From Tetraselmis striata (lineage: Eukaryota > Chlorophyta > Chlorodendrophyceae > Chlorodendrales > Chlorodendraceae): a stretch of DNA of 64,000 bases. The notes under the pieces are model-generated. The model was given only the letters and a program-made list of their open reading frames with translations, had not been told where the DNA came from and did not search any database. The stretch is from the NCBI GenBank assembly GCA_006384855.1, contig VCJN01001601.1:62001-126000 (forward strand), in the 5' to 3' direction. The translations under genes and the position numbers were made by a program. Positions 7,897 through 49,039 of the stretch are shown one piece after another (the stretch's first letter is position 1; the number at the start of each line of letters is the position of its first letter).

Positions 7897-8140
7897 TTTG
7901 CGAGCATGTCCAAGGAGTTTCCGCCCAACCTGCAAGGTGGAGGCTATTGGAGACCTTGACATGATGATGGGTTATCTTGTTTCAGAACGGGCGACTCGAG
8001 ATTGAGGGCTGGAATACCAAGATGTAAAATACACCAGTAGAAAGGCCCGCACAACAGTCTTTGCATGTCTACGTTTTCGGCCGCATCGCCACGTCAGCAG
8101 CTTCGGCGGTTGGAATGTCGGAATGTGCGATGAGGGTGCG

Positions 8141-8171
<31 letters not shown>

Positions 8172-9795
8172 GGGGTATCACAGTGTCCTTATCGTACACC
8201 ACCAGTTTGAATCTCCGTGAGTATAAACGAGCGGGATGAGGAGGGGGGGGGGGGCAATATGTTTCCTCACACTATGTACCCTGAGGCCTCTCGACGCGCG
8301 CCTGATCTCCTGACGAAAAGCGGTTGTACTCGCATTTCACAGCCAAGTTGTACTGTCCTTTGGGGGCGCTAGCTAGGCGCTGCCTGTAGTTTGCATGTGA
8401 TTTTGGGTACCTGTGGAGGACAAACCTACCATGTACCCTATATGACGCCCTAGCAGGTAGCCCAATGGATCAGCCCATTGGGCTGGGGCTGCACGCCACT
8501 GCAGCGCCAGCTGAAACCCGCCGGCCCTATTGAGGGCGCATGGAATGCATATAGCGTTTTCGGGCGAGTGGGCTAGTTTTGGAGCCGGCCGTATCTGCAG
8601 CTTCGGACCGTTTTGCGCGATAAGACACGCTATGGGTTGTACCTAGGCGGCCGTGTAGGTAACATACATCGTCCATACCCTGTTATACAATTAGCTCAAA
8701 TGGTGTGAGGTGGTATGTGTGTGACCTGTTGCATGTACAATGGACCAACAAGTGATATTTGCCTCATTAGATGGTGTTGGCGGCGTTGCGAGCACTGGCG
8801 ATGTGGAGAGTGTGTAGAGCACGCCTTTGCAAATCTGTTCCGTGATAAGGATGAATAGAGCTGGCTTTGGCGTGGGACTGTACACATGCATCGCATTCAC
8901 ATGCACACCATAAATGCACACCCTCTTGACATTGGCACCTCGAGTTCAACACTGACACTGAACGGCGAAACACACACAGATGGCTCTTATAGCAAGAACA
9001 CAGCCAATGCCATTACAGCCTGTCTCCCGGCACACAGGGCGTCATGTCTACGTATCACAGATGGAAGGGCGCGGCCAGATATGAAGGCGGGGCGGTTTGA
9101 CAACCCACCGATATAAAATCGCCAATTCAAAAACGCGCAAATGCTTTGTGAAGCACTGAAGCAAATAGGACGTGCAAGTTGTTGCAGTGATGCCTGCCCC
9201 CTCTCTATTTCTCTTTATGTGAATATGTGGCCGGCACATTACGAATAAGCATTCTCCAGCAGGCGATAGCAGGGAGAGATTGGCACCCTGAAACACTGTT
9301 TCATGAAATGCTAACAATGCCACGGGCTTGGTTGCCAATATAGTCCATGCACAGCCCCTGCACCGCCACGGACCCCCAACTTCCCATGAATACTCGTAGA
9401 AGGCTTGAGGTCTGTCATAGCGTCATCACGGCACAAAGCGTATGCGCGATCCTACCCAGCAGCACCCTGCAGCAACATTGGTATGTAATATCGGATCGGA
9501 TTTCCTGTAAATACACATGCACATGCAAAACTTGCAGCATGTGTGTGGCGATATTGCAAGTACTCGCCATCTGAGGCGCCGCGAGTACGGGCATGATTTC
9601 ACACTGTATCGGTATGCTCACGTGCCTGAAGGAGGAGGATTGAGGGGGGTGCCGTAGTGTAGAATGCTCAGTTACACTCGGAGACAATGCCCGTTACGTA
9701 ATCCTTACACCTGCCCTTCGCCAGGCAGGGCTGACGCCCCCGGCGGCTGCCGTGGCGAATTAAATAGTCCAGGTGCCAGCACGGGCGCTGTGCAC
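7897..9795. other. Intergenic, with G tracts and a small hairpin
   Basis: This holds the 3' side of the MAEA-type gene and the downstream flank of the SERF gene. Visible features are a TG repeat running into a long G tract (about 8,138-8,176), another G tract (about 8,241-8,253) and an inverted repeat AGCCCAATGG/CCATTGGGCT at 8459-8483. The short frames have no recognisable domain. Confidence 0.45.
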
Positions 9796-10095
9796 TTAGG
9801 CCCCCTTCGCAGCCGCCGCCGCTTTCTTCGCGGCTTTTTCCTGCAGTGCCTTGGCGTCCCTGGCAGCGGGTCGAGGGAAAGGCGGCGGCCAGCCTGGGTC
9901 AGCGGCAATGTGATAGTGTGGCAAGGTGCTCGCAATTGACTAGGCAGTGTCCCCCTGGGGGCCTGTAGCTGGCACGCACCGTTCTCTCCGCTGAGAGGCA
10001 CTCAAACCATCCTTCGCTTTTGAAGTCTGCCCCTGCGCCGCAGCCCGGTTGGCGGCGCGGGCCCTGTCGACGTCACGCTTGTTACCGCGGGACAT
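9796..10095 (-). CDS. SERF: SERF/4F5-family small basic protein
   Basis: Two exons join in phase on the minus strand: 10095-9980 and 9859-9796, giving 59 residues. The protein opens MSRGNKRDVDRARAANR, the family signature of the 4F5/SERF N-terminus. It continues with KDGLSASQRRERDAKALQEK and ends in an alanine-lysine tail (AAKKAAAAAKGA). The junction splits an arginine codon (CG|G) with a consensus donor (GTGCGT) and acceptor (CTGCCAG). SERF proteins are small, disordered and highly charged, and animal homologues modify protein aggregation. The length and composition match the family. A double palindrome resembling heat-shock elements sits a few bases upstream of the start codon. Confidence 0.85.
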
Positions 10096-15866: not shown

Positions 15867-18800
15867 TGATCTAAACTAGTTTATGGGGTTTCCATCCTTG
15901 ACCTAACCGCTTTTCAGCTACAAGTGCTGCGCAGTGGTACGGGAACTAGTAACTGTTGTTGCGCCCTTGTTGGGTGCAGCACGAGTAGACATAAAAGCAG
16001 CCAGAACAGCTGAGCCTGCCATCTTCCAGTTTTCGCTGCGTTCCACGCAGCGATGTAAAAACTGTCTCGTAACCCGTTGCGAGCAAGGTCACCCCAGGTT
16101 GTTCAAGACCACACCTACCCGGCTCGCCATCCGAGTGTGATATTCTCGTCCGTACGTCCGTGCGTTACTATGTCAGATGGAGAAGAACCCGTCGCTGAGC
16201 CGACGTTGCAGTCGCTGAACGCAGATATGAGGGCCCAGTCTTCATTACTGCGAGAGCTGGCTACAGCTGTGGCACAATTGACGGTTCGTGATCGCGTTGT
16301 TGATGGAGAAGGGGCACATGGCTCCGGCTCAGGGCAGCGCTTCGCGAGACAGCCGACAGGCAGCGGGGGAGCCGCAGAGCGCCCCGACTTGCTAGAGCTA
16401 GCCCAGAGCGGCCGTGTCGGAGCAAAATCCGTGAGTGCCGAGGATGATTACCTCGCGGTGCCAGAGCTACTGCAGAGAGCAGAGTCTGGTTACGAGGCCG
16501 TTCGACCGGTCAGCCGAGTGCCTGGACTTTTCCCTTTGAGCACCGACCTAACGAACGAGTACCTCAAGCAGGATGACCGGCGTCTGCCGGCCCAGGAGGA
16601 GTACTTGTGGATGTCGTGTTTCGGGGCCCACATGGCCGCCCTTTTCGTGGCGCTCGACGAGCTACTGCCCTACGTCCCTTCCAGCAACCAGGACTTCACC
16701 CCCTACCTCGCGAGAGCCCGGAATCACGCCGAGGCCATCGACAAGGCGTTTCGGTTTCGTTTGGCCTTCCTACGGAAGCTCAATGAGATCAAGCGTGTGC
16801 ACGGTGACCAAGGTGTTCTGGATGTGCTGCGAGCCCAGCATTTTCAGCCTGCTTCGGAGCATCTGGGTTCCGCGATCTTTGGGGACCTCATGCGGGACTA
16901 CGAGCGTCGTGTCTTCGAGGCGACCGTTGCCAGCAGCGCCAATGCGACCGCTACTTCTCGAGTGGCGGCTGCAGTTGCAGGTCGCGGGCGTGGGCGAGGA
17001 CGTGGCGGCAGACGTGGACGTGGCCGCGAAGGTGAGCACGAGTGACGGTGTGGGGCGCCGTTCGTCGGAGCTGCAGGAGCCTTGCGAGGCCACCTTTCGG
17101 TGACCGCCGCAAGACGCACCCTTGCAGCTCAACGGCGGGATGAGCGCCCTGTGTCAGGACCTGACCCCCCCACCTTACATACTTCATTTAGACCTTCCTC
17201 GGTGCGGCGCTTCTTACAGCTACAGCCGAGTGCGGCTCAACCATCCGCACACCTGCACATGGCGGCTCAACCATCCGCCTTTCGTACAACCCCATCTCCG
17301 CGTTCGTCGGTTGTTACACTACGAGTTACAACCGGTTCGCAACGACCAAGTTTCGCGCGTGTACGTTACGCACGGGACAGGCGCTATGAGCGCGAAGGGC
17401 GCGCGGGGCGGCCCTCCTACCTGAACCTAGCCCCGCAAACCCGTACTGAAGCTACTGCAAACCCGTCCAGCAACTACCGGCCAACCGCCGGGAACCTAAC
17501 CGCTGCTGCCGAGTACTTTGCGAACAGTGGCCGTGCCGGTGGCACTCTGTCAGTAAAACGACGCACTTACGTAATCGACGAGCCCGCAGCTATCGCTCCG
17601 TGGGCTGCGTCACTGCGATCCCGACTACAGGACGCGTTCGGCTCAGACGAGCTAGGCCAGCGGACGCTCGACCTGCTCTCCAGCTCCCTCAGCGCTCAGA
17701 CCCTCAAGAGCTACGCCGGCAGGTTGGCTCAGTTCGCTGAGTTCTGCCACGACTCCGAGAACATCAGCCCGCTAGAGGCGACTACTGCTACTGTTGTTCG
17801 GTACGTTGCCTGGATCGGGGAGCGAGGACATATCGCAGCTAAGTCGCTGCAGCCCTATCTGTCTGCCATCAACACCTTCTTCGAGCTGCACAACCTCGTC
17901 CCGATCGCCAAGGACAGCCTACACCTCACTTCGGCAAGACGTGGGTTAATGTTACGTCAGCGTCGACTGGACGCTGCCCCTTTGCGTGTCCCTCTGCCTG
18001 CGGATGTAGCTTACCGCTTCGTCTCAAAGGCCGAGCTAATTGTGTCTGCTCCTTACCCAGAGTCCCACCTCGACTACCGAGCTCTCTTGGCCTCGGTTGT
18101 CAACTTCCTGTTCTTTGCCAGGGGCCTTACTGGCGTCTCCTGTCGAGTGCAAGATGTGCATGTCGACACCTACAACATCACCTTGCAGATCTACCGCGAG
18201 AAGGGTCGCGCCGGCCGGCGGGCGGGGACCTGACGACCTGCGAGTACTTCTCCTTCCAGTGTCCGAGCACCCTCGAGTGGCACGTCTCTCGCGCAACTTC
18301 ATCGACAACGTCCAGTCTGTCCCCCTGGTTACTGTTGGCTTGGCTACCTCCAACTTCTGGGCTGTCAATGTGGCTGAGCAGTCAAAACCTTGGACTGCTA
18401 CTACGATGTCAGACTGGTTGTCTACAGCAGTCAACCTAGTCAACGCTGCCCCCCCTGCTGGCACTTCCTGGACTTCACACAGTCTACGCAAGGGCGCAGC
18501 CTCTGCAGCAAACGCCATTGGAGCGCCACTGTCCCACATCCGCTACCAGGGCGGTTGGGCCACTAACTCCGATGTCGTTCTGGACTACATCGACCCCAAC
18601 GTTCTTCCTTCTCCTGGCGCGTGGTTCTTTTTTGGACACATCGCCCCCCTCCGCCACTTCCAAGTCCAACAGGACTCCGCAGCGGTGGCCTTCCCAGTGC
18701 CTCCTTCATGACTTGGCGCTACCCCTTCTCCGTCAATCCACCGCTCTCTCCGTTCGCTTATGACTGGCAAAACCAGACTCAACTTTGAAATGATCTAAAC

Positions 18801-19097
18801 TAGTTTATGGGGTTTCCATCCTTGACCTAACCGCTTTTCAGCTACAAGTGCTGCGCAGTGGTACGGGAACTAGTAACTGTTGTTGCGCCCTTGTTGGGTG
18901 CAGCACGAGTAGACATAAAAGCAGCCAGAACAGCTGAGCCTGCCATCTTCCAGTTTTCGCTGCGTTCCACGCAGCGCCCCCCCTGACTCCGTTTTCCCTC
19001 CACGCTTTTCGCTAAACCTTCCTGCCAATTTCGGCTCTTGACCGTGTAAAACAGCCTGCGCGACCGTTTTGGCAAAACCAGACTCAACTTTGAAATG
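15867..19097 (+). mobile_element. Split-direct-repeat tyrosine-recombinase element (DIRS/PAT-like), no RT visible
   Basis: The element has the layout A1 - genes - B1A2 - B2. A is a 186-bp repeat (15867-16052 and 18791-18976) ending in the hairpin CGCTGCG-TTCCA-CGCAGCG. B is a 28-bp repeat beginning TGGCAAAACC (from 18765 and 19070-19097). Split direct repeats of this type define the PAT/Ngaro branch of tyrosine-recombinase retrotransposons and reflect a circular intermediate. Inside are a gag-like frame (about 16,170-17,045) with an RGG-rich tail and a recombinase region (about 17,082-18,711) with the HSLRKGAASAA signature around the catalytic H-x-x-R. No reverse transcriptase or RNase H lies between them. 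The two A copies look almost identical, so the insertion is probably young, although the recombinase region looks broken. Confidence 0.8.
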
Positions 19098-20123
19098 GTA
19101 CTATACTGGTATTGGTACCCGTACTTGCTACTTTGTGCTGCTGCTGTGCTGTTGGCTGTAGCAGCAGTGGCCCCGCCCCGGACGGCAGGCGCAGCGCAGT
19201 AGGGCATGATGTTCTGACGATGGTCAACAGCGCGTGCATAGCCGCCACCGTAGGCTCGCGAGCCCCACTACAGGCCGCGCCTCCAACGCGTGCACACGTC
19301 GCGGTGCGTCCACGTTGCCGCCTCACGAGTGCTTGCACACAGGCGCCCCTACAATCCACGTCAGGCGGCGGCTATATAGCCTCCCTTGGCTATCTTTCCA
19401 CCCCCGGTGAGCCGAACGAAGGCGAGGATGTTCGGCCTTTCCCGCAGCGGCCGCTTTCAAGCTGGAGAGAGCTCAACTCCAGGTCAGCCCTTTTATCCCA
19501 GCACATACGCGCAAGCACACAGCTGCCCGTACTAGTGACATCCCCCTGTCACTCAGGGGCTAAGTAACTCCCATTCGCTGTTCGTGATCCCTTTCACCGA
19601 CTACTGCGTGACATGCCGTGCTGGTCAACGTGCGGTTTCCGCTTTGACCACCTAGTGTCTTAGCATCAACGCACCGGCTGTGGCCCCTTCTATCACGACG
19701 CCCTCACCTGTTGTGGAGGCTAGCGGGTCATGCTTATAGCAAAAGCGTGAGGGGAGCTCCTTCACAGAGGGTTGCTGTTCCGAAAACAAGTGAGTTCTAC
19801 ATGATGCTCAATGGTTGATGCGCGGCTCGGCGCTCTGCCTCGAGAGTATTTTTAGATGTCGGATGTTGCGCGCCCCTGTCGTCGTGTTCCCTATTTTCAA
19901 CCCTGGAAACAACGACTGCATGACGATGTAAGTTCAATCGTTTCCTTGCTCGACCTGCCACTGGGGCCATTCCCTCAATCCCTCCTCTATCAGGTCGACC
20001 CTTGCCCTCGCACACGTGCGAAACTGTGCCACCCGTACAGGAAAACACCTGATCCAGCTGCACCCAACCGTTAAGTGGTGTCTCTTTGGGCAACCCACAC
20101 TCACCCGGTGTCACCGACCGCAG
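19098..20123. other. Region upstream of the coiled-coil gene, start exon not resolved
   Basis: The first exon or exons of the giant coiled-coil gene should lie here. A frame starting at 19856 (MSDVARPCRRVPYFQPWKQR) ends at a good GTAAGT donor (19928), but its phase does not fit the next supported exon. I therefore do not join it. Confidence 0.35.
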
Positions 20124-23100
20124 GGCCCGGAGCATACGATCCAAAGGCGAAGTATGACGTCGGGTGGCACGCGGACCCGAAATCCGCTTTCAAAGGAGGC
20201 GACCGAGGCCTGGACGGCTCTTCCTTCTCCGGTAAGCGTGCCCGCTCGGTGCTGAGAGGTCCATAACGGCGGTCGGCAGGGCCGCGCTCTCGACGACAGT
20301 TGCCTGACTTCCCCAATTACGCCGCAGGGAGCGAATGTGAGATGTTCAAGAAGCCCGAGACACCGGCGCCGAAGAAGCCCGAGCTAAAGCAGATGCTCCC
20401 CGAGGGGCGGAAGTACTCCTGGGCGACCGAGCAAATCCACAAGCTGCAGACCGAGCTGCAGGCGGAGAAGCAAAGGCACGCGCCTCTGCGGGAGACGCTG
20501 GCCTCCAGAGAAACCCAAATCAGCGAGCTGCAGGCGGAAGTCGAGAGACTCGAAGCCTGCAACCGCACCGAGGAGGAGAACAGCGCAGGCCTGCTGCAGA
20601 GAGTCGGTAGGTCCCAGACGCTATGGCGCATCCTTCGCCACTCTGCCCACAGGGATGACATGCACTAGCCCCCCGCATCTCTGCACTCACCGCCTCATGC
20701 GAACCCTCCTGCGTAGACGAGCTCACCTCCCAGCTGGATGCCAAGAAGGCATCGCTTGAGGAGATGGAGTCAAAGATGAGCGATCAAGCTGACCATATCC
20801 AGGAGCTTGTGGCACAGCTGACGGACAGCACTGGTGCCAACGATGAGCTGCAGGTGTGTGCGCCCACTTGATGGCGTTCCACCACAGCACCCAATGCTTT
20901 TCAGCTCAGAATGCACTCATGTCGAGCTACGATGACACGATGTTTTGCCCTTGTGATCATATACACTTGCTTGACGCAGCGTTGCCTCCCGGCCATCTCG
21001 GAGGCACTGTATGCAACACTGTATTGCTGAGACTGTGCTCACCTGCATACACCACCAGGCGCTGAGGGATAAGCTACAGTCTGACGTCTCAGCGATGGCG
21101 GCTCAGTGCGAGGAGCTCAGCGCTGCAGTTGTGGCGGCGAACGAGGAGAGGTCTGCCGCACAGGCTGACGGCGAGGAGCTGGCCTGGCGTTTGGAAGCCG
21201 TGACAGCGGAGAGGGCGGCAGCTGATGCACGTGGGGAGGAACTTGCGGAGCAGCTGGCTGCGGCAACGGGTGAGAGGGACGTCCTGGCGCGGCTGCGGGA
21301 GCAGTTAGCTGAGCAGCTTACGTCTTCAGAGGACGCCAGGTCTGCGGCTGAGGCACGCGGGGAGGAGCTAGCTGTACAGCTTGCAACGCTCGAGGATCAG
21401 AAAGAGGCCGCGGTGCAGCACGGGCACAAGTTGAGCGAGGAGCTGGCTGCCATGACTGAGCAGATGGATAGCGCCGTTCAGCACGGCAACGATCTCGCCC
21501 AGCAACTGGCAGCCACGAAGGCAGAGAAGGACACCGCCCTGCAGCGCGGCGAGGAGCTTTCATCTCAGCTGTGTGACATGACTGCAAAGAAGGAGAGTGC
21601 TGTGCAGCATGGTGAAGACCTCGGCCAGCAGCTGGCTGCCGTGACGGAGGAGAAGGGCGATGCGCTGCAGCGTTGGGAGGACGTCTCTGAGCAGCTGGCC
21701 GCCATGACGCTGGTGAAGGACGACACAGTGCGGCGCGGTGACCAACTGTTGGAGCAGTTGGCGGCAATGACTGTGGAGAGGGACGGCGCAGTGCAGCGCG
21801 GGGAGCACCTTGCCCAGCAGCTGGGAGTCATGTCGCAGGAGAGGGAGGCTTCCGTGCGCCGTGGTGAGGAGCTCGCATCACAGCTCTCTGCGATGACAGA
21901 GGAGAAGGACAGCGCCGTGCAGCATGGCGAGAATCTTTCCAAGCAGCTTGCCTCCATGGCCGCGGAGAAGGAGGCTGCAGTTGAACATGGAGCAGAGCTT
22001 TCCAGGCAGCTTGCTGTCATGGCGGAGGAGAAGAAGGGCGCCGTCCAGCGCGGCGATGTGCTTTCTCAGGAGCTCACTGCCACGTTAGCGGAGAGGGACG
22101 CAGCGGTGCAGCACGGAGAGGAGCTCATGTCTCAATTGGCATCAATAACGGAGGAGAAGGAGGCTGCGGTGCAACATGGGGAGGAGCTCACGTCACACCT
22201 GACGGCAATGGCGGCGGAGAGAGGCGCTGCAGTGGAGCGTGGCGCCGAGCTGTCTGAGCAGCTGGAAGCCATGACGGCTGAGAAGGAGGCCGCCACACAA
22301 CATGGGGAGGACCTTGCCCAGCAGCTGGTGATCATGGCGGCTCAGAAGGAGGCCGCTGTGCAGCACGGCGAAGAGCTGTCCTCTCAGCTGGCGGCCATGA
22401 CTGAGGAGAAGGTGGCCGCTGTGCGGCACGGGGAGGAGCTGTCCTCTCAGCTGGCGGTCATGACCGAGCAAAAGGAGGTCGCTGAGCAGCGCGGCAACCA
22501 GTTGTCCTCTAACCTGGCGGCCATGACAGGTGAGAAGGAGGCCGCTGTGCAGCATGGCGAGGAGCTGTCCTCTCAGCTGGCGGCCATGACGGAGGAGAAG
22601 GACAGCGCTGAGCAGCACGGCAACCAGTTGTCCTCTCAGCTGGAGGCCATGACTGAGGAGAAGGACAACGCTGTGCAGAGTGGCAACCAGTTGTCATCTC
22701 AGCTGGAGGCCATGACTGAGGAGAAGGACAACGCTGTGCAGCATGGTGATGAGCTTTCCTCTCAGTTGGCTGCCATGGCGGAGAAGAAGGAGGCCGCTGA
22801 GCAGCGTGGCGAGGAGCTTTCTTCTGAGCTGGCTAACATGACACAGCAGCTGGCGGCCATGACCGCCGAGAAGGACGCCGCCGTACAAAGTGGGGAGCAG
22901 CTCGCATCCCAGTTAGCAGCTGTGACGGAGGAGAAGGACAGCGCCGTGCAGCATGGGGAGGAGCTGTCCTCTCAGCTGACAGCCATGACCGAGCAGAAGG
23001 AGGCCGCTTTTCAGCGAGGCACGGAGGTTTCTTCTGAGCTGGCTGCCATGACGGAGGAGAAGGACAACGCTGTGCAGCATGGTGAGGAGCTGTCCTCTCA

Positions 23101-26100
23101 GCTAGCGGCCATGACTGATGTGAAGGACAGCGCTGTGCAGCGTGGCAACCAGTTGTCCTCTCAGCTTTCGGCCATGACTGAGGAGAAAGAAATTGCGCTG
23201 CAGCATGGCGAGGAGCTGTCCTCTCAGCTGGAAGCCATGACAGATGAGAAGGAGGCCGCTGTGCAGCATGGCGAGGAGCTGTCTTCTCAGCTGGTGGCCA
23301 TGACGGAGGAGAAGGAGGCCGCCGTCCAGCGTGGCGAGGAGCTGTCCTCTCAGCTGGCGGCCATGACAGAGGAGAAGGAGGCCGCGGTGCAGCACGTGGA
23401 GGAGCTGTCCTCTCAGCTGGCGGCCATGACTGAGGAGAAGGACAGCGCTGTGCGGCATGGGGAGGAGCTGTCCTCTCAGCTGACAGCCGTGACCGAGGTA
23501 ATGGAGGTCGCTGTTCAGCGAGGCGAGGATCTTTCTTCTGAGCTGGATGCCATGACTGAGAAGATGGAGGCTGCTGTGCAGCACGGCGAGGAGCTGTCCT
23601 CTCAGCTGGCAGCCATGACGGAGGAGAAGGAAGCTGAGGTGCTGAATGGCGAGGAGCTGTCCTCTCGGCTGGCGGCCATGACCGAGGAGAAGAACAGCGC
23701 TGTGCAGCACGGCGAGGAGCTGTCCTCTCAGCTGGCGGCCATGACGGAGCAGAAGGAGGCCGCTGTGCAGCACAGCAAGGAGCTGTCCTCTCGGCTGGCG
23801 GCCATGACCGAGGAGAAGAACAGCGCTGTGCAGCACGGGGATGAGCTGTCCTCTCGCCTGGCGGCCATGACTGAGGAGAAGGAGGCCGCTGTGCAGCGAG
23901 GCATGGAGGTTTCTTCTGAGCTGGCTGCCATAACTGAGGAGAAGGACAGCGCTGTGCAGCATGGTGAGGAGCTGTCCTCTGAGCTGGCGGCCATGACTGA
24001 GGAGAAGGAGGCCGCAGCGCAGCACGGCGAGGAGCTGTCCTCTGAGCTGGCGGCCATGACGGAGGAGAAGGAGGCCACTGTGCAGCGCGGCGAGGAGCTG
24101 TCCTCTCAGCTGGCGGCCATGACTGAGGAGAAGGACAGCGCTGTGCGGCATGGGGAGGAGCTGTCCTCTCAGCTTGGGGTCATGACCGCCGAGAAGCAGG
24201 CCGCTGTACAGCAAGGCGAGGAGCTGTCCTCTCAGCTGGCGGCCATGATAGATGTAAAGGAGGCCGCTGTGCAGCATGGCGAGGAGCTGTCCTCTCGGCT
24301 GGCGGCCATGACTGAGGAGAAGGAGGCCGCAGTGCAGCATGGCGAGGAGCTGTTCTCTCAGCTGGTGGCCATGACCGACGAGAAGCAGGCCGCCGTCCAG
24401 CGTGGCAACCAGTTGTCCTCTCAGCTGGCAGGCATGACGGAGGAGAAGGAGGCCGCTGTGCAGCACGGCGAGGAGCTATCTTCTCAGCTGGCGGCCATGA
24501 CGGAGGAGAAGAAGGCCGCTGTGCAGCACGGCGAGGAGCTGTCCTCTCAGTTGGTGGCAATGATGGAGGAGAAGGAGGCCGCCGTCCAGCATGGCGAGGG
24601 GCTGTCCTCTCAGCTGGCGGCTGTGACAGATGAGAAGGCGGCGGCTGTGCAGCACGGCGAGGAGCTGTCCTCTCAGCTGGTGGCCATGACGGAGGAGAAG
24701 GAGGCCGCTGTTCAGCACGGCGAGGAGCTGTCCTCTCAGCTGGCGGCTATGACTGAGGAGAAGGAGGCCGCTGTTCAGCACGGCGAGGAGCTGTCCTATC
24801 AGCTGGCGGTCATGACTGAGGAGAAGGAGGCCGCTGTTCAGCATGGTGAGGAGGTGTCCTCTCAGCTGGCGGCCATGACTGAGAAGAAGGAGGCCGCAGT
24901 GCAGCACGGTGAGGAGCTGTCCTCTCAGCTGGCGGTCATGACTGAGGAGAAGGAGGCCGCAGTGCAGCGTGGCAACCAGTTGTCCTCTCAGCTGGCGGCC
25001 ATGACTGAGGAGAAGGAAGCTGCGGTGCTGAATGGCGAGGAGCTGTCCTCTCAGCTGGCGGTCATGACAGACGAGAAGGACAGCGCTGTGCAGCATGGCG
25101 AGGAGCTGGTCTCCATGACGGAGGAGAAGGAGGCCGCTGTGCAGCACGGCGAGGAGCTGTCCTCTCAGCTGGCGGTCATGACTGAGGAGAAGGAGGCCGC
25201 TGTTCAGCACGGCGAGGAGCTGTCCTCTCAGCTGGCGGTCATGACTGAGGAGAAGGAGGCCGCAGTGCAGCGTGGCAACCAGTTGTCCTCTCAGCTGGCG
25301 GCCATGACTGAGGAGAAGGAAGCTGCGGTGCTGAATGGCGAGGAGCTGTCCTCTCGGCTGGCGGCCATGACTGAGGAGAAGGAGGCCGCAGTGCAGCATG
25401 GCGAGGAGCTGTTCTCTCAGCTGGTGGCCATGACCGACGAGAAGCAGGCCGCCGTCCAGCGTGGCAACCAGTTGTCCTCTCAGCTGGCAGGCATGACGGA
25501 GGAGAAGGAGGCCGCTGTGCAGCACGGCGAGGAGCTATCTTCTCAGCTGGCGGCCATGACGGAGGAGAAGAAGGCCGCTGTGCAGCACGGCGAGGAGCTG
25601 TCCTCTCAGTTGGTGGCAATGATGGAGGAGAAGGAGGCCGCCGTCCAGCATGGCGAGGGGCTGTCCTCTCAGCTGGCGGCTGTGACAGATGAGAAGGCGG
25701 CGGCTGTGCAGCACGGCGAGGAGCTGTCCTCTCAGCTGGTGGCCATGACGGAGGAGAAGGAGGCCGCTCTTCAGCACGGCGAGGAGCTGTCCTCTCAGCT
25801 GGCGGCTATGACTGAGGAGAAGGAGGCCGCTGTTCAGCACGGCGAGGAGCTGTCCTATCAGCTGGCGGTCATGACTGAGGAGAAGGAGGCCGCTGTTCAG
25901 CATGGTGAGGAGGTGTCCTCTCAGCTGGCGGCCATGACTGAGAAGAAGGAGGCCGCAGTGCAGCACGGTGAGGAGCTGTCCTCTCAGCTGGCGGTCATGA
26001 CTGAGGAGAAGGAGGCCGCAGTGCAGCGTGGCAACCAGTTGTCCTCTCAGCTGGCGGCCATGACTGAGGAGAAGGAAGCTGCGGTGCTGAATGGCGAGGA

Positions 26101-29100
26101 GCTGTCCTCTCAGCTGGCGGTCATGACAGACGAGAAGGACAGCGCTGTGCAGCATGGCGAGGAGCTGGTCTCCATGACGGAGGAGAAGGAGGCCGCTGTG
26201 CAGCACGGCGAGGAGCTGTCCTCTCAGCTGGCGGTCATGACTGAGGAGAAGGAGGCCGCTGTTCAGCACGGCGAGGAGCTGTCCTCTCAGCTGGCGGTCA
26301 TGACTGAGGAGAAGGAGGCCGCAGTGCAGCGTGGCAACCAGTTGTCCTCTCAGCTGGCGGCCATGACGGAGGAGAAGGACAGCGCTGAGCAGCACGGCAA
26401 CCAGTTGTCCTCTCAGCTGGAGGCCATGACTGAGGAGAAGGACAACGCTGTGCAGAGTGGCAACCAGTTGTCATCTCAGCTGGAGGCCATGACTGAGGAG
26501 AAGGACAACGCTGTGCAGCATGGTGATGAGCTTTCCTCTCAGTTGGCTGCCATGGCGGAGAAGAAGGAGGCCGCTGAGCAGCGTGGCGAGGAGCTTTCTT
26601 CTGAGCTGGCTAACATGACACAGCAGCTGGCGGCCATGACCGCCGAGAAGGACGCCGCCGTACAAAGTGGGGAGCAGCTCGCATCCCAGTTAGCAGCTGT
26701 GACGGAGGAGAAGGACAGCGCCGTGCAGCATGGGGAGGAGCTGTCCTCTCAGCTGACAGCCATGACCGAGCAGAAGGAGGCCGCTTTTCAGCGAGGCACG
26801 GAGGTTTCTTCTGAGCTGGCTGCCATGACGGAGGAGAAGGACAACGCTGTGCAGCATGGTGAGGAGCTGTCCTCTCAGCTAGCGGCCATGACTGATGTGA
26901 AGGACAGCGCTGTGCAGCGTGGCAACCAGTTGTCCTCTCAGCTTTCGGCCATGACTGAGGAGAAAGAAATTGCGCTGCAGCATGGCGAGGAGCTGTCCTC
27001 TCAGCTGGAAGCCATGACAGATGAGAAGGAGGCCGCTGTGCAGCATGGCGAGGAGCTGTCTTCTCAGCTGGTGGCCATGACGGAGGAGAAGGAGGCCGCC
27101 GTCCAGCGTGGCGAGGAGCTGTCCTCTCAGCTGGCGGCCATGACAGAGGAGAAGGAGGCCGCGGTGCAGCACGTGGAGGAGCTGTCCTCTCAGCTGGCGG
27201 CCATGACTGAGGAGAAGGACAGCGCTGTGCGGCATGGGGAGGAGCTGTCCTCTCAGCTGACAGCCGTGACCGAGGTAATGGAGGTCGCTGTTCAGCGAGG
27301 CGAGGATCTTTCTTCTGAGCTGGATGCCATGACTGAGAAGATGGAGGCTGCTGTGCAGCACGGCGAGGAGCTGTCCTCTCAGCTGGCAGCCATGACGGAG
27401 GAGAAGGAAGCTGAGGTGCTGAATGGCGAGGAGCTGTCCTCTCGGCTGGCGGCCATGACCGAGGAGAAGAACAGCGCTGTGCAGCACGGCGAGGAGCTGT
27501 CCTCTCAGCTGGCGGCCATGACGGAGCAGAAGGAGGCCGCTGTGCAGCACAGCAAGGAGCTGTCCTCTCGGCTGGCGGCCATGACCGAGGAGAAGAACAG
27601 CGCTGTGCAGCACGGGGATGAGCTGTCCTCTCGCCTGGCGGCCATGACTGAGGAGAAGGAGGCCGCTGTGCAGCGAGGCATGGAGGTTTCTTCTGAGCTG
27701 GCTGCCATAACTGAGGAGAAGGACAGCGCTGTGCAGCATGGTGAGGAGCTGTCCTCTGAGCTGGCGGCCATGACTGAGGAGAAGGAGGCCGCAGCGCAGC
27801 ACGGCGAGGAGCTGTCCTCTGAGCTGGCGGCCATGACGGAGGAGAAGGAGGCCACTGTGCAGCGCGGCGAGGAGCTGTCCTCTCAGCTGGCGGCCATGAC
27901 TGAGGAGAAGGACAGCGCTGTGCGGCATGGGGAGGAGCTGTCCTCTCAGCTTGGGGTCATGACCGCCGAGAAGCAGGCCGCTGTACAGCAAGGCGAGGAG
28001 CTGTCCTCTCAGCTGGCGGCCATGATAGATGTAAAGGAGGCCGCTGTGCAGCATGGCGAGGAGCTGTCCTCTCGGCTGGCGGCCATGACTGAGGAGAAGG
28101 AGGCCGCAGTGCAGCATGGCGAGGAGCTGTTCTCTCAGCTGGTGGCCATGACCGACGAGAAGCAGGCCGCCGTCCAGCGTGGCAACCAGTTGTCCTCTCA
28201 GCTGGCAGGCATGACGGAGGAGAAGGAGGCCGCTGTGCAGCACGGCGAGGAGCTATCTTCTCAGCTGGCGGCCATGACGGAGGAGAAGAAGGCCGCTGTG
28301 CAGCACGGCGAGGAGCTGTCCTCTCAGTTGGTGGCAATGATGGAGGAGAAGGAGGCCGCCGTCCAGCATGGCGAGGGGCTGTCCTCTCAGCTGGCGGCTG
28401 TGACAGATGAGAAGGCGGCGGCTGTGCAGCACGGCGAGGAGCTGTCCTCTCAGCTGGTGGCCATGACGGAGGAGAAGGAGGCCGCTGTTCAGCACGGCGA
28501 GGAGCTGTCCTCTCAGCTGGCGGCTATGACTGAGGAGAAGGAGGCCGCTGTTCAGCACGGCGAGGAGCTGTCCTATCAGCTGGCGGTCATGACTGAGGAG
28601 AAGGAGGCCGCTGTTCAGCATGGTGAGGAGGTGTCCTCTCAGCTGGCGGCCATGACTGAGAAGAAGGAGGCCGCAGTGCAGCACGGTGAGGAGCTGTCCT
28701 CTCAGCTGGCGGTCATGACTGAGGAGAAGGAGGCCGCAGTGCAGCGTGGCAACCAGTTGTCCTCTCAGCTGGCGGCCATGACTGAGGAGAAGGAAGCTGC
28801 GGTGCTGAATGGCGAGGAGCTGTCCTCTCAGCTGGCGGTCATGACAGACGAGAAGGACAGCGCTGTGCAGCATGGCGAGGAGCTGGTCTCCATGACGGAG
28901 GAGAAGGAGGCCGCTGTGCAGCACGGCGAGGAGCTGTCCTCTCAGCTGGCGGTCATGACTGAGGAGAAGGAGGCCGCTGTTCAGCACGGCGAGGAGCTGT
29001 CCTCTCAGCTGGCGGTCATGACTGAGGAGAAGGAGGCCGCAGTGCAGCGTGGCAACCAGTTGTCCTCTCAGCTGGCGGCCATGACTGAGGAGAAGGAAGC

Positions 29101-32100
29101 TGCGGTGCTGAATGGCGAGGAGCTGTCCTCTCGGCTGGCGGCCATGACTGAGGAGAAGGAGGCCGCAGTGCAGCATGGCGAGGAGCTGTTCTCTCAGCTG
29201 GTGGCCATGACCGACGAGAAGCAGGCCGCCGTCCAGCGTGGCAACCAGTTGTCCTCTCAGCTGGCAGGCATGACGGAGGAGAAGGAGGCCGCTGTGCAGC
29301 ACGGCGAGGAGCTATCTTCTCAGCTGGCGGCCATGACGGAGGAGAAGAAGGCCGCTGTGCAGCACGGCGAGGAGCTGTCCTCTCAGTTGGTGGCAATGAT
29401 GGAGGAGAAGGAGGCCGCCGTCCAGCATGGCGAGGGGCTGTCCTCTCAGCTGGCGGCTGTGACAGATGAGAAGGCGGCGGCTGTGCAGCACGGCGAGGAG
29501 CTGTCCTCTCAGCTGGTGGCCATGACGGAGGAGAAGGAGGCCGCTCTTCAGCACGGCGAGGAGCTGTCCTCTCAGCTGGCGGCTATGACTGAGGAGAAGG
29601 AGGCCGCTGTTCAGCACGGCGAGGAGCTGTCCTATCAGCTGGCGGTCATGACTGAGGAGAAGGAGGCCGCTGTTCAGCATGGTGAGGAGGTGTCCTCTCA
29701 GCTGGCGGCCATGACTGAGAAGAAGGAGGCCGCAGTGCAGCACGGTGAGGAGCTGTCCTCTCAGCTGGCGGTCATGACTGAGGAGAAGGAGGCCGCAGTG
29801 CAGCGTGGCAACCAGTTGTCCTCTCAGCTGGCGGCCATGACTGAGGAGAAGGAAGCTGCGGTGCTGAATGGCGAGGAGCTGTCCTCTCAGCTGGCGGTCA
29901 TGACAGACGAGAAGGACAGCGCTGTGCAGCATGGCGAGGAGCTGGTCTCCATGACGGAGGAGAAGGAGGCCGCTGTGCAGCACGGCGAGGAGCTGTCCTC
30001 TCAGCTGGCGGTCATGACTGAGGAGAAGGAGGCCGCTGTTCAGCACGGCGAGGAGCTGTCCTCTCAGCTGGCGGTCATGACTGAGGAGAAGGAGGCCGCA
30101 GTGCAGCGTGGCAACCAGTTGTCCTCTCAGCTGGCGGCCATGACTGAGGAGAAGGAAGCTGCGGTGCTGAATGGCGAGGAGCTGTCCTCTCAGCTGGCGG
30201 CCATGACTGATGTGAAGGACAGCGCTGTGCAGCATGGCGAGGAGCTGTCCTCTCAGCTGGCGGCCATGACGGAGGAGAAGGAGGCTGCTGTTCAGCACGG
30301 CGAGGAGCTGTCCTCTCAGCTGGCGGTCATGACTGAGGAGAAGGAGGCCGCAGTGCAGCGTGGCAACCAGTTGTCCTCTCAGCTGGCGGCCACGACTGAG
30401 GAGAAGGAGGCCGCAGTGCAGCGTGGCGAGGAGCTGTCCTCTCAGCTGGGGGCGATGCAGGAGGACAGGGAGGCGGCGGTGCAGCAAGGTGTGGAGCTGT
30501 CTGAGCAGCTGGCTACCGCCGAGGCTGCCAAGGAGGCGGCGGACACTCGCGCGGAGGCGACCCAGAGGCAGAACAAGTCCCTGGCCGCGGAGACAGCGTG
30601 TCTGCAGCAGAGCCTGGCGGAGCTAGCTGAGGAGGTGGCAGCCACGGAGTCCGCCAGGGCGGAGGCCGAGACGCGCCTGGCGGAGCTGGCAGACCGACTG
30701 GCTATCGCGGAGGAGCAGAAGGAGGACGCGCTGCGCCGCCGGGAGGAGCTGCGCGAGCAGCTGGCTGCCGCTGAGGACGCAAGGAGTGCTTCCGAGGCGT
30801 CTGGGGAGGAGCTGGCCCTGATGCTGGCGGCGCTGAGGGAGGAGCGCGAGGCGGCGCAGCAGCGCGTGGAGGAGCTGGCGAGCGGGCTGTCGGCTGCCGA
30901 GGGCGGCCGGGCGGCCGCAGAGAGCGCGCGCGCCGCCGCAGCCGCTCGGAGCGAGCAGCTCTCGCAGCGTCTGGCGGACCTGAAGGACGAGGTTCAAGAG
31001 GTGCTGGCCAACGAGGCGGCGTCTCAGCTCCTCGCGGCCAACATTAAGACCGTCCACCTGGAGCGCGACCGCCTGCTGGCCGAGAACGAGGTGCTGGATC
31101 AGCGGCTGGCCAAGTGCGAGGAGGCGCTGATGGCGGAGAAGGCGGTGCTGGGGCACGGCAACGCGAGGCAGAAGATCCAGTACCACCTGCGCCTCAAGCA
31201 GGAGCTGGAGGAGATGCGCCATGAGTGCACCGGCCTGCTGCGCGAGCGCTTCCATCTCGAGCAGTGCATCAGGTCCCCCCCCCCCCCCCCCCCCCCGTCC
31301 TCGCACCCCGTTAAGGGCTACATGTGCAAGCAGTGCGTCGTGATGACATGGTGTGACGCTCCCTATGGGCTGCCACCCCCAGCGGGCCGGCGAATGTGTG
31401 GCGCCCTTTCTCACAACGCGCTATTGGCATGCAGGTACCTCGCTGTGCGGAACCGCGTGTCGCCTTCGGGCGTCGCGGCGTCAGGCTTGAGGGCACGTGC
31501 GGCCAAGGACAAGGTAGGCGATGTAACACCTCCCGCCCGCGATTCGGCATGAAGGAAGTCGGACGCCGCGGATGTCCGACTTTTGTTGCTCCGCGCAGGT
31601 TCTGCCAGCGAGTCTGGCTCCGCGCAGCGAGTTCGCCACTCCGACGGGGAGGAAGATGATGGCCTCCTCTGCTCGCGGGCAGCACGCCCGCAATGCGCTC
31701 GACAACAAGGCCAACGCCTCGCACCACGATGAGCCCGCCCTGAGGAACAAGGAGAACGTCACCCCGAACGCGGCACACGATGTCATCGCTGCTGACCTCG
31801 TTGGTGAGCGCTCGCTTTGGTGTCCTATTCCCCGGATTAGCTGCCTCGTAAGTCGCCGTGTCTGGCGACGTCTGAATCATCTCCCACCGACCCTGTGTGC
31901 TGTATTCGGCAGAGCAAGCATTTGGCACGGACACGGTTGGGCACGAGCCGGTGGAGGCCTCCATCCTGGAGCGCATCCGCAAGGTGTGCGCGCCAAGCAG
32001 CCGGCACGGCGCGCCTCAGGCCGAGACGGCGCCTCGCGGCAGCCCCGCCGCCTCCAACGCCGCGCCCGGGGGCAGGCACAGCGAGTCGGCCATGTCGCCG

Positions 32101-32133
32101 CACAGCATCGCCGACCTGAGGGCGGCGAGGTGA
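20124..32133 (+). CDS. Giant coiled-coil protein with about 144 copies of a 21-residue repeat
   Basis: Exons that join in phase are 20124-20231, 20327-20606, 20717-20853, 21059-31272, 31435-31513, 31599-31803 and 31913-32133. The first gives PGAYDPKAKYDVGW, which resembles the PG-rich STPGR motif of ciliary microtubule proteins. The next two are ordinary coiled coil (IHKLQTELQAEKQ, QISELQAEVERLEA). The huge exon holds about 144 tandem copies (roughly 21,400-30,480) of a 21-residue unit near MTEEKEAAVQHGEELSSQLA, exactly three heptads. A non-repetitive coiled coil follows to HLEQCIR, then a low-complexity tail ending SIADLRAAR. The visible protein is about 3,750 residues. The intron after 31272 is 162 nt, a multiple of three, without stops, so its retention would add a proline-rich insert. 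No motor or enzymatic domain is visible. A cytoskeletal, flagellar or basal-body structural role is inferred only from coiled coil plus the PGAYDPK motif. The start codon is not identified. Confidence 0.8.
21400..30480 (+). repeat. Nested coding repeat: 63-bp unit, 1,059-bp and 3,777-bp higher-order units
   Basis: The base unit is 63 bp (21 codons). A segment from about 22,570 recurs with a shift of exactly 3,777 bp, which makes two long copies plus a partial third. Within each, a 1,059-bp segment recurs in tandem (for example 24180-24560 matches 25239-25619). The arithmetic closes: 1,059 is 17 units minus a 12-bp deletion (the HGEELVSMTEEK unit), and 3,777 is 60 units plus a 21-bp insertion minus two 12-bp deletions. 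Long copies look essentially identical, which implies recent duplication or ongoing homogenisation and makes the assembled copy number uncertain. Confidence 0.9.
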
Positions 32134-33359
32134 CGGAGGATGGCTCCGCCTTCGCCATGATGGCTCGCTGCAGTGCGGGCGCGGTAGCGCCCCAGGAACT
32201 ATTAGAGCGAGTGCGTTGTAAGGGCTCCTACTATCGATTCAGATATCACGTCATTATGCATTTGGTTGGACCCCCCCCCCTCACCATTCCCCTTGAATCG
32301 TGCCGCTGTGCGGTCTGCTTGACGATGGCACTCACCCCGTTGACGCACTTCTCATCCTACTACCCGTACCCACATTGTATTTCTGTTATTGGGCCACCGC
32401 AAAGAGAGCAGGAAAGCTTTGTTTCCCATCTTGAAATGTAAAATGGTGCGCCGCGAAAATGCAGCAACGGAATCCACGTCTCGATGCTGGCTGGCGCACA
32501 GCAACTCGTTCCCTATGCGACCCGCGGACCCGAGACTAGAAATGGCACGGGTGATGGTCCGTCAATCAAAGTGCTGATGCTCACCGTCAAAATCCTGTAA
32601 CATGACGCGACCGGTGAGATGCTTGCGTGCGCATGTATCCATGGCATCGGGATAGCGATGTGCTGTTGAGTCTGTGCAAATTGCCTTGGAGACAAGTTGG
32701 CACGGTGGTGGCTTAGAATCTGTTGAAATAGAGCCTTTAGTACTGCCAGCAGCAGCTCCTGCCGGCTATGGGCTCAGCTGGGGCTGCAAGCTGGTGCACC
32801 TTAACACTGCTGCATTCTAGTATGTAAAGCCTGCTGAGCCGCCAGTCTCGCGGCTCCTGTCTCTAAACTACTGGTTGGGGTGATGCTCAGCGTTGCATGA
32901 CCATCTGAGGTCATTCTAGAGTGGGCATGTTCACCACATGCCAACTCACGGATGTCTAGGAGCTGAGCTCCTGCGGAAGCTCTCCGCTCCCTAATATACA
33001 ACGCTGTATATGTACCGTGCCTAAGTACTAATACCAAATATCGCGGCACAACACATGCAGCTCCCAGCGGGCAGGGCAGTCTGCCCAGCACTGCAGCTGG
33101 TGGTCTTACAGTCAGATCAGTAGATCAAGGACAGACCAGTGTCATCTATTGATCCTCATCAATGCTCGCCGCGTGCCTGCTGATGTTGCTCCTGGTGCTC
33201 TCCGCTCCTCAGCGCATGCAGCTGTACATGTACTATTCCTAACTACTGATTCCAACTATCGGCACAACACATCCAGCTCCCAGTGGGGATTCTGTCTGCC
33301 TAACACTGCAGCTGGTGGTCTTACAGTCAGAACTGTCTCAGATCAGCAGCCGGCCTGTG
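32134..33359. other. 3' flank of the coiled-coil gene and LTR-like direct repeats
   Basis: No coding region is supported. Two related blocks of about 145 bp (about 32,976-33,120 and 33,197-33,340) lie in direct orientation about 0.2 kb apart, next to the 3' end of the minus-strand Copia remnant. They share CTCTCCGCTCC, GCACAACACAT, CAGCTCCCAG and GCAGCTGGTGGTCTTACAGT. They may be remains of terminal repeats. Confidence 0.35.
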
Positions 33360-40150: not shown

Positions 40151-41544
40151 CTCGGTTACGGACTGCCCACCTGCGCGCCGCAGGAGATGCGGTTTAGCGC
40201 ATCGTTCCATATACCGCTTCTCCCGTCCCACCCAACACCGCTTGTTACTGCCACGCGCGCCAAACCAGTTCCACTTACGCATACATCTAACAGAAGGACT
40301 CCCCGGACCCGGCGGCTGCCACTCCTCGCACAGCCCTTTGTGGGCGACGGGGCACGCGGCGGTTTTTCACCCACCTCTCTGTAAGCAGAACAACACAAGC
40401 TCAGTCGAGCGCTGGGCTCGTCGACGACACTGCTGCGATTGCTGACCGTGTTGAGCAGGAGGGAGTGTCGTGAAGGAGATGTCGCGGTCCAACCATTATA
40501 TCGTCCGAATTGCGGCGCGGAAATTTTGCGGCGCGCGGCGCAGTACATGACAGGTAGTCGCTCTCGTCTCATCATGGTTGTCTGGCTACGGTATCTGCTG
40601 GCTATGCTGGTCAGATGACGATGGCTATCGATAATCATAATCCTTAGCTAGGCCGGATAAACAGCAGAACATGCTGCGCATATGGTTCCGTCACCTACAT
40701 ATAATCCGGAATAAATTGAATTCACTACGTCGCGTCCGATTGTGTCTCGCGCGCGGCGATAGTTTCGCGGATGGATTGTGCGCGGGCAGCGGCATTGATC
40801 CGGCAGACGACAGAAAAACCACCGTGAACGAAATCTTATGTTCCTATTATTAATACTGTAGTAGTTATGCCTTGGACCTCGTACAGCTCATATCATTATC
40901 GATCGTCGTCAACAACATCATCCTGGAAATCTACCTGAAATCCTCGTACTGCAGAGTTCGTCCAGCCTGTCAGCATGATCCTTTTATCATTATTCATTGT
41001 CGGCTTTGTCGCGTCGCCTACCTGTACGCTGCCGAGCTGCTAGCGCAGTAGCCACCAAATTCTCGACGCGCGTCGACGTCCGTCGACCGCCCTGGTCGAC
41101 CGCTCTCGACGCCCGTCGACGCCCGTCGACAACGCTAGTCATCGATATAAGGATTATACAGGCTTTTCGGGTGGTTTCCTGATCGCCTTTTGCAGCTGCT
41201 AACTCATGGTTATGATTATGATTAGCTCATATGTAAATGCTAATCCTTATATACAGGTACGCGGCTTATATACAGTACGCGGCTCAGTAAGTACGAGTAC
41301 CGGAGTGCTACCAGTGTACTATCGACCGACATACATTATATACATGAGCTAGCAGCAGAAGGCGATATCGGAAATCACCAAAAAAAAGGCAATCAGAGAG
41401 GTCCTCTACAGCGACGACTGCGGAGTGGAAGCAGTAACATGAGAAGACGCAGAGTGGGCACGAGCACACGCATCAGACTTGGCCATCTGCACACCGGCAG
41501 AGAGAATGCCGCCCAGGGTACCATGCACGCAAGCCATACATTAT
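40151..41544. other. Region upstream of DXR, no supported gene
   Basis: It should contain the DXR promoter. A cluster of CGTCGAC units lies at about 41,068-41,133, and a reverse-oriented copy of the dispersed GATATCGCCTTCTGCTGCTA motif at about 41,343-41,387. Confidence 0.4.
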
Positions 41545-43439
41545 ATGGTCAGATGTAGTCATCTAGAGGTTTACAGTACATTAGCTATGTTGTACTGCGC
41601 ACGACCCCCGAGGTCGGCGCACGGACTAAGGCCTGCCGGCCCGCACCAGCACTACGACCTGAGGGATCCACCCTCGGGCACCGGCACTCTCTGCTTTGCG
41701 CTCGCCTCAACCGGCTCGCGCAAGGAGTCTCGACTCTAGCAGTCGAGCAGAGTGTCAGCTTACTCTATGCCGACTCGGACCCGAGCCTCAGCCTCCCGAG
41801 ACGCTACACCTTCCCCACCCCGCGACAGTAGGATGCCCCCTCGCCCTGTACCGGAAGACGCCCTAGTCGACGACGCCCCGGGCGGCGCCACAGCGGCATC
41901 CATCGCGGAATTGGGAAAACGCCTGACGCCCCAAGCGGAAGCCCTGGAGAAGCGGCTGGCCGAGCAGTCCATTCCCGCGGGCGCGCCTGCGCCCGAGGGT
42001 GGTGAGCAAGGAGCGCAAGAGCCCCTCTCTGTTGAGATGGACGCACTCGACACCGAGCTCGAGTACGTCGACTTCGCCTACTTCGGTCAAGTCCCCCCTT
42101 CCGGTCTACAGCCACCCCCACGCGACGGCGACGAGCCTCGCTTGTGGATTCTGACCGACGACGACACCGAATTGGAAAAACGCCTGACGGCCCAAGCAAT
42201 AGCCCTAGAGAATAGTCCGGTTAAGCACCTTGCTGGACCGCCTAGGCATGCTGCGCAACCCCAACAAGGGAGTCTGGGAGCCCACCCAGGTCGGCCCTCA
42301 CCTGGGGCTGATCGTCGACCTGCAGCGCGGCGAGTTCCGCGCCCCCGAGGAGAAGCTCATCGCGCTGGCCAAGGCCGCCCGTTCTCTCCTTGGCCGCGCA
42401 GCCTCCAACAAGCGCTGGCTCCCAGCTCGGCAGCTGGCGTCCTTTGCGGGCAAGGCGCAGTTCCTGTACTCGGCAGTTACGCCGGCCCGTTTCTTTTTGC
42501 GCGAGCTGCACTGCGTCCTCGCAACCCGGCAGGGCTGGGGCGGGCGCGTCAAGATGACAAACCAGCTGCGCCGCGACCTGGAATGGTGGACCCAGGTACA
42601 TGCGCAGCACAACGGTCGCTCTATGTACAAGCCCGTGGAGACCGCGTATCTGCACGCGGACTCCAGCTCGTATGGATGGGGGGCTGTGCTCAACAACAAC
42701 AACGCTTACCAGGCGCGCGGCTTCTGGTACGAGGACGACCGCTCGCATCACATCACGGGGAAGGAGCTTCGCGCGGTACGACACGCGGTCGAATCCTTCC
42801 TGCCGCATCTCCGAGGACGGCGCGTCTTGCTGCACGAGGACAACACGGCCGTGGTGGCAGCGCTAACCAACCTTACCTCTCGGTCACCCGTCATGATGGA
42901 GGAGCTCCGCAAGCTGTGGCACCTCTTGGATATGCACTGTGAGATTCAGATGTGACATACAGGTGACGAAGCACTACTACGAGCGACTATTATTTATCCG
43001 TGAAGGCTGCTGCTGGTGGCGGCACGTCCATCCAGTTACGTGCGAGTACATCCGGCGTTATTGCCGGCGGGCGATAAATCCTTTTTGTCATCATTCTGGT
43101 AGTCGTACCAGCCCGGTGAAGCGTACATGGCACTGACGTACAAGGTACAAGGTTGTCCGTGTAGTACCGGGTAGTACGCGATATATTTATTACGCCGGTA
43201 CCGGGGATGTAGTACCCGGTACCCGGTACCCGGGCACGAACCCTAGTCGTCCTGTGGATAACTACGACTATTAATACATTGGAGCGCAAATCGCAGCCGT
43301 ACGTACTTGGTAACACTGGGGAATTTGTAGTACTAGTACTGCTGATCGGGCCTGCCAGCCGTCCGATCAAAGGTCATCAGATGGGCGGTTTGGCTGCCAT
43401 GTTTTGCCAAAGATTGCTCACGTTACATAAATATTCGCG

Positions 43440-44280: not shown

Positions 44281-44508
44281 GGTGGAGAAACTAACACCCA
44301 GTCGACGACCGCCTTCCGCAGCAGTCAACGACACATCGGAGGCGAGGAGCAGCGCGCCACTACTATTTATATGCACGTATTGTCAAGAGCTAGTCGGTGC
44401 GGCATTGTGTCGGTGTAATTTCGCAATGTTTATTGTTGAAGTAGCACGGCGTAATGGATACGGCGAGTGAATCCGGGATAATGTGTGCGACGAATGTGCG
44501 CGCGCAGC

Positions 44509-44553
44509 GTTGTGCGGCGGTGTGCGGCGGTGTGCGGCGGTGTGCGGCGGTGT
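44509..44553 (+). repeat. TGTGCGGCGG tandem repeat
   Basis: Four consecutive 10-bp units (TGTGCGGCGG) inside the CACTA-like element, just before the larger tandem array. Confidence 0.9.
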
Positions 44554-44649
44554 GCACCGATGTTAATATAGTGTGAATATTATATCGGCCGTAGACGATC
44601 AGGTCTGGCAGCACCGCCCGTGCTTGTAAATAAGCGACAATGGGTCTAG

Positions 44650-47430: not shown

Positions 47431-47471
47431 GGTCGGGCGCAATGTCATTGGGTGGGGCACACGGACGTGTA

Positions 47472-49025: not shown

Positions 49026-49039
49026 CGGGGTATCGAGTC

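Follow-up and report, generated by a model that had tools for sequence, protein, structure and literature searches.

What does an exon made almost entirely of nested repeats encode, and how did it reach its present length? The question arises in a 64,000-nucleotide stretch of the green alga Tetraselmis striata, here called the window (contig VCJN01001601.1, or C1298, positions 62001-126000, with an N count of 0, in a eukaryotic assembly of 224,097,584 bases and 2,903 contigs), where 144 tandem units fill most of one coding exon. The locus is read here as a functional nuclear gene whose product, about 3,765 amino acids (aa) long and about 405 kDa in mass, would be an HMMR-like (RHAMM-like) microtubule-associated protein with a spacer rod and no motor, an interpretation to which slightly better than an even chance is given. 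It draws on an eight-exon model in one frame, on selection visible in the codons of the repeat, and on a C-terminal segment that matches the HMMR_C family.

Gene model and repeat array

The gene model, joined by eye and with a script, places eight exons between 19428 and 32133. The joined exons form 3,765 codons in one frame with GT/AG borders and no internal stop; the shared frame of the eight exons, together with a ratio of nonsynonymous to synonymous change (dN/dS) of 0.36 among the repeat units, marks this as a coding gene. Exon 5 lies in a stop-free + strand open reading frame (ORF; 21011-31552, 3,513 codons) and supplies 3,404 of the 3,765 residues, in agreement with the first-pass annotation, which had described a single coding exon of about 10.2 kb. 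The weakest splice site in the model is the exon 5 donor, GTCCCC ahead of a C run. The predicted features are as follows:

19428-19482, + strand: exon 1 with the start codon (MFGLSRSGRFQAGESSTP), predicted from its GT donor and stop-free join to exon 2
20124-20231, + strand: exon 2, PGPGAYD head (SHIPPO-like), with AG/GT borders and a SHIPPO-rpt match
20328-20606, + strand: exon 3, where the coiled coil begins, with AG/GT borders; the joined frame is open and the other two have stops
20717-20853, + strand: exon 4, with AG/GT borders
21059-31272, + strand: exon 5 (10,214 bp), holding the entire repeat rod and the HMMR_C-like segment, from the ORF and the model
30968-31237, + strand: HMMR_C-like segment (includes LGHGNARQKIQYHLRLKQELEEM), from the genome scan
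31435-31513, + strand: exon 6, from the gene model
31599-31803, + strand: exon 7, with the protein's only KEN motif, from the gene model
31913-32133, + strand: exon 8 and stop, from the gene model

Wraparound alignment of the ORF translation gives a unit table of 163 rows, degenerate ends counted in, with a unit of 63 bp, or 21 aa in three heptads (consensus AVQHGEELSSQLAAMTEEKEA). Rows 7-152 make up the core; these 146 rows represent 144 units because rows 29 and 30, and likewise rows 90 and 91, together hold a unit extended by a heptad. To either side of the core, in rows 1-6 and 153-162, the 21-aa period continues in degenerate units. Tandem Repeats Finder (TRF) scores the array at 7,343, with a reporting threshold of 100, and finds three further arrays in the window with units of 6, 369 and 30 bp. 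With the unit as query, the genome gave at least 66 matches at E<=0.01, and all of these lay on the array's own contig. The array contains the following elements:

21410-30475, + strand: 144 units of 63 bp (21 aa), from the unit table and TRF
22566-26367, + strand: first copy of the 3,777-bp block, from the exact match
26343-30144, + strand: second copy of the 3,777-bp block, from the exact match
26343-26367, + strand: 3,777-bp duplication junction inside a chimeric unit (row 86), from informative sites
28053-29132, + strand: first 1,059-bp copy of the second block; the others are at 24276-25308, 25335-26367 and 29112-30191
22844-22864, + strand: 21-bp (one-heptad) insertion, approximate place, with a copy near 26621 (rows 29/30 and 90/91)
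25085-25135, + strand: unit with a 12-bp (4-aa) deletion, with copies at 26144, 28862 and 29921 (rows 66, 83, 127 and 144)

Self-comparison reveals two levels of order above the unit. At an offset of 3,777 bp, the two large blocks are identical over 3,802 bp with zero mismatches. At an offset of 1,059 bp, the two copies in each block differ at a single site, position 24710 in the first block and 28487 in the second. This site is the first base of a codon; rows 60 and 121 have GTT (V) there, and rows 77 and 138 have CTT (L). The 1,059-bp match in the first block is shortened by the later 3,777-bp junction, which cuts the second 1,059-bp copy. Both block lengths follow exactly from the unit table, as 17 x 63 - 12 = 1,059 and 60 x 63 - 24 + 21 = 3,777. 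These results bear out an earlier description of the locus as 144 three-heptad units nested in near-identical 1,059-bp and 3,777-bp copies, whose lengths were explained by 17 and 60 units with a 12-bp deletion and a 21-bp insertion.

The same comparison makes the amplification history legible, as had also been proposed. Since both 3,777-bp blocks carry the mismatch, the 1,059-bp duplication and the V/L mutation are older than the 3,777-bp duplication. Over the 315 bp that flank the 3,777-bp junction in either direction, 113 informative sites to its left agree with one parent and 100 to its right with the other, with zero exceptions; the 1,059-bp junction (29112-29132) has 87 and 57 such sites, again with zero exceptions among those counted. 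The sequence common to both parents is 25 bp at the larger junction and 21 bp at the smaller. This clean switch of parent means that the units there are in-register chimeras, the pattern expected of unequal crossing-over or of some equivalent exchange. Along the array, the identity of non-redundant units to the consensus climbs from 71% to 91% in the 5' to 3' direction, a gradient read as a sign that the 3' part may be the younger. Dating the duplications in years was rejected for want of a clock.

Purifying selection at the a/d positions of the heptads

The first-pass annotation had seen selection on the coil in the fact that all indels are multiples of three. The lengths are indeed multiples of three, yet the core indels come from two independent events only, further copies having arisen through the duplications, and two such events would both keep the frame by chance once in nine. 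Frame-preserving indels are also a weak argument in kind, because they bear on the reading frame rather than the coil: the 21-bp insertion preserves the heptad, whereas the 12-bp deletion (4 aa) breaks it. The claim that the indels prove selection on the coil was therefore rejected.

Codon analysis supports the selected rod on other grounds. It covers 68 non-redundant rows (7-69 and 148-152, with rows 29 and 30 as halves of one unit), or 2,278 pairs, and excludes 95 of the 163 rows, namely 70-147 as recent copies and 1-6 and 153-163 as degenerate. The heptad register was fixed by the hydrophobic spacing in the consensus. Synonymous differences per site (pS) average 0.415 and nonsynonymous differences (pN) 0.189, which gives the overall dN/dS of 0.36. 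At the six a/d positions the ratio is 0.10, versus 0.49 at the remaining positions, while the six other heptad phases give 0.39, 0.84, 0.17, 0.20, 0.65 and 0.55, and the a/d set ranks as the most conserved among all 54,264 six-column sets. The pairs are non-independent through their common history, and the phase control has that same history. Purifying selection is concentrated at the a/d positions.

A structural model generated by AlphaFold2 in single-sequence mode gives one helix across the 4-aa deletion, with a mean predicted local distance difference test score (pLDDT) of 90.4, and an AlphaFold2 model of the C-terminal rod shows three long helices (pLDDT 86.3); single-sequence models favour helices and have no bearing on oligomer state. 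The rise of an alpha-helix is 0.1485 nm per residue. If fully helical, 144 units would thus span about 449 nm (about 0.45 µm), and the recent duplications would have contributed increments of about 52 nm (1,059-bp) and about 187 nm (3,777-bp).

The junctions suggest how the rod may have grown. Unequal exchange between in-register units would have produced an old phase of single-unit growth, then the 1,059-bp duplication, then one point change (V/L), and finally the 3,777-bp duplication, each duplication lengthening the rod and leaving the ends unaltered. Because in-register exchange keeps both frame and heptad, one event can change the length greatly without damage to the ends. The protein would accordingly suit the role of a spacer or tether whose length is adjustable in one step, and length variation between strains is plausible.

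An HMMR-like C-terminus and its alternatives

Domain searches tentatively link the C-terminus to HMMR. The 124-aa core matches PF15908 (HMMR_C) at 27.8 bits and E 3.5e-6, with the next family at E 0.12, and in the C-terminal 430 aa HMMR_C is the sole Pfam family at E<=1 (22.3 bits, E 1.6e-4). None of ten controls, one reversed and nine heptad-preserving shuffles, matches HMMR_C. A scan of the 224-Mb genome, in which profile scans score only the best candidates and ignore introns, reported two HMMR_C matches at E<=10: the array gene (25.9 bits) and a locus on another contig, C2359 (29.1 bits). The protein's single KEN lies at residue 3675 of 3765, in the C-terminal tail. The PF15908 match, the clean controls, the two genome matches and the KEN in the tail are among the reasons for calling the protein HMMR-like; it is kept out of the HMMR family itself because HMMR_N was not found.

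At the N-terminus, the head motif STPGPGAYD matches PF07004 (SHIPPO-rpt) at 18.3 bits and E 0.005, under the cut-off of 20. In the spliced first 93 aa, SHIPPO-rpt was the only match at E<=10, with no HMMR_N, and HMMR_N is likewise absent from the 25 of 55 families listed for the spliced first 260 aa. In the genome scan, which scored 8 candidates on unspliced exons, HMMR_N (PF15905) was unmatched at the locus, and its best match elsewhere reached 17.2 bits with a cut-off of 30.1. Other searches added little: the C-terminus found 8 weak matches in the PDB (best E 0.037), 123 aa of it found no relatives among viral contigs, and an Rfam scan of the window gave no match. For the TPX2 domain, the genome has one match above cut-off and a second below.

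Human HMMR is roughly 720 aa long and has a PG-rich N-terminus, and mouse RHAMM contains tandem 21-aa repeats. The algal protein shares the PG-rich N-terminus and is about five times longer at 3,765 aa. It is also largely coiled coil without a motor, judging from the share of exon 5, the helix models of two pieces and tblastn. HMMR is described in the available part of PMC7226759 as a coiled-coil, microtubule-binding spindle factor that has a C-terminal zipper in common with Kif15 and whose C-terminal domain carries D, KEN and TEK boxes. The array protein resembles this factor in being motorless and mostly coiled coil, and may also do so in its zipper-like C-terminal segment and the KEN in its C-terminal tail (PMC7226759, same part). 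It differs in being algal rather than animal, in its undetected HMMR_N, and in an HMMR_C score that is 0.8 bit below cut-off at best; HMMR-like genes are placed in chordates and insects in that part of the source (PMC7226759).

If the HMMR-like reading is right, the PGPGAYD head would contact microtubules, and the C-terminal KIF15/HMMR-type zipper and KEN box would direct the protein to poles or basal bodies and allow its removal in the cell cycle. Between them, the alpha-helical coiled-coil rod of 144 units would hold head and tail apart over about 0.45 µm. Splicing, the oligomer and binding are predicted parts of this model.

The best-surviving alternative accepts the coding array and assigns it to a generic long coiled coil, of golgin-, rootletin- or nuclear-pore-like type, whose HMMR_C match reflects convergent heptads; it is a serious possibility, though a less likely one. 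Several observations weigh for it, against the HMMR-like explanation, or both. Coiled coils hit many families weakly, as when the first 260 aa (the N-terminal coil) matched 55 Pfam families at E<=1, the best being STX6_10_61_N at E 7.7e-5, a low value of the kind that coils produce by chance; one shuffled control likewise matched another family at E 6.5e-4 (best of 10 controls). The HMMR_C score falls below the curated Pfam cut-off of 28.6 every time (27.8, 25.9 and 22.3 bits), HMMR_N was not found at the locus, and one of 14 control genomes, a bacterium, also gives an HMMR_C match at E<=10, below cut-off. About 0.5 KEN is expected from composition in such a protein. Gly and Lys occupy two of the three 'a' positions, which makes for a weak hydrophobic core, and BLASTP of the array-gene tail with the KIF15-like tail on C2359 is non-significant (best E 0.16). 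Convergent heptads fit poorly, however, with a 430-aa C-terminus that matches HMMR_C alone at E<=1, with the ten reversed or heptad-preserving controls that all fail to match it, and with a genome scan whose two reported hits were the array gene and the locus that carries a KIF15-like motor.

A second alternative concerns length, holds that the 3,777-bp duplication (perhaps also the 1,059-bp one) is an assembly error and that the true gene is shorter, and would be compatible with the HMMR-like explanation; it is unlikely. Zero mismatches in 3,802 bp, though units differ by about 24%, fit a false duplication and count against taking the array at face value. The assembly also contains contig pairs that resemble separated haplotypes. 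Two pairs were examined, C1057/C2075 at about 97% likeness and C476/C1576 at about 94% with one 86% piece, over 5.8-8 kb, and they may be separated haplotypes or recent segmental copies. For the array gene itself, no second haplotype was found: 19400-21400 matched itself alone in the assembly, and 31000-32200 matched, besides itself, 8 short C-run stretches. The left flank, 6800-9800, matched itself and short diverged repeats only (best 40 of 338 candidates). Against an error stand the N-free window and gene ends that each occur once, those C-run matches aside, as well as junction overlaps of 25 and 21 bp, which are below those usual for assemblers. Both 3,777-bp blocks inherit the 1,059-bp mismatch, and a block of this kind is one that a short-read assembler would be prone to collapse.

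At the second HMMR_C locus, C2359:55000-64500, a tail that exceeds the HMMR_C cut-off (29.1 bits in the genome scan, 30.4 bits otherwise) lies downstream of kinesin motor pieces on the same strand, and among PDB chains the larger piece scores best with KIF15 (167.7 bits versus 120.9 for the next non-KIF15 chain). With the four motor pieces as tblastn queries, no kinesin motor was detected in the window; the best match, E 0.021 over 15 residues, is at 20453-20497, inside exon 3. The array protein is like KIF15/kinesin-12 in its C-terminal HMMR_C-type segment and unlike it in that no motor domain was detected in its window, and the genome appears, by sequence, to hold both a KIF15-like kinesin with an HMMR_C tail and, separately, a motorless array protein. 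That the array gene is a kinesin-12 separated from its upstream motor exons by the mobile element at 15.9-19.0 kb is highly improbable: HMMR and KIF15 do have a C-terminal zipper in common (PMC7226759, available part) and a tyrosine-recombinase element lies directly upstream, but the genome's own KIF15-like motor pieces rise no higher than the stated match in the 64-kb window, the model opens with a methionine exon and the PGPGAYD head, and motor exons with an HMMR_C-type tail sit on another contig. In the available part of PMC1434745, on plant kinesins, the word KIF15 is absent.

Nested repeats in coding exons are already known. Hornerin has a 39-bp unit and four repeat levels, and NBPF is a further case of coding higher-order repeats (PMC9584774, available part). 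The array belongs with them in having near-identical multi-unit blocks of diverged units in one frame, with units, unit groups and groups of groups within one gene. It differs in having a three-heptad coiled coil as its unit and two upper levels that are almost mutation-free. New, if the reading holds, would be an HMMR-like protein in an alga, with a giant rod that was extended recently. Among the listed titles and abstract openings, with subscription papers mostly outside the search, no HMMR in algae was found, and within the same literature no giant tandem-repeat coiled coils in green algae; one candidate source, PMC10540734 on Ostreococcus, was set aside, since in its available part 'hmmr' is a program name.

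A wider proposal is more tentative and rather doubtful: that a motorless HMMR-type spindle or basal-body protein predates the divergence of plants and animals and persists in green algae together with a KIF15-like kinesin, its rod here being a tether of variable length, about half a micrometre long, recently extended in steps of 52 and 187 nm. An algal HMMR relative, if true, would give this spindle factor a much earlier origin and uncouple its basic role from hyaluronan. The array also offers a rod protein whose length history can be read base by base, and natural length variants could probe spindle or basal-body geometry.

Neighbouring and genome-wide features

The window also carries mobile and repetitive sequence. 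A tyrosine-recombinase element at 15867-18976, about 450 bp upstream of exon 1, has Phage_int_SAM matches in its ORF at 17046-18233 and is bounded by two 186-bp direct repeats; it is probably recent, because these repeats are identical. Farther downstream, 41542-53096 is marked by a pair of 181-bp direct repeats (98.9% alike) separated by 11.4 kb, the second of which adjoins another tyrosine-recombinase ORF (51184-52932); the region is perhaps one large mobile element. In addition, 48382-49026 holds a GC-rich 30-bp unit in 21.4 copies (98%) within the open frame 48373-49473, and 44655-45832 a 369-bp tandem repeat in 3.1 copies (93%).

An open frame at 7013-7873 contains a CTLH domain (E 6.2e-45), with weak RING/U-box matches below cut-off, and presumably encodes a subunit resembling those of the GID/CTLH ligase. 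In the wider genome, a green-algal host is made likely by the rbcL frame on C1177, whose best PDB match is chain 1gk8 from Chlamydomonas, and by 63 chlorophyll a/b-binding matches.

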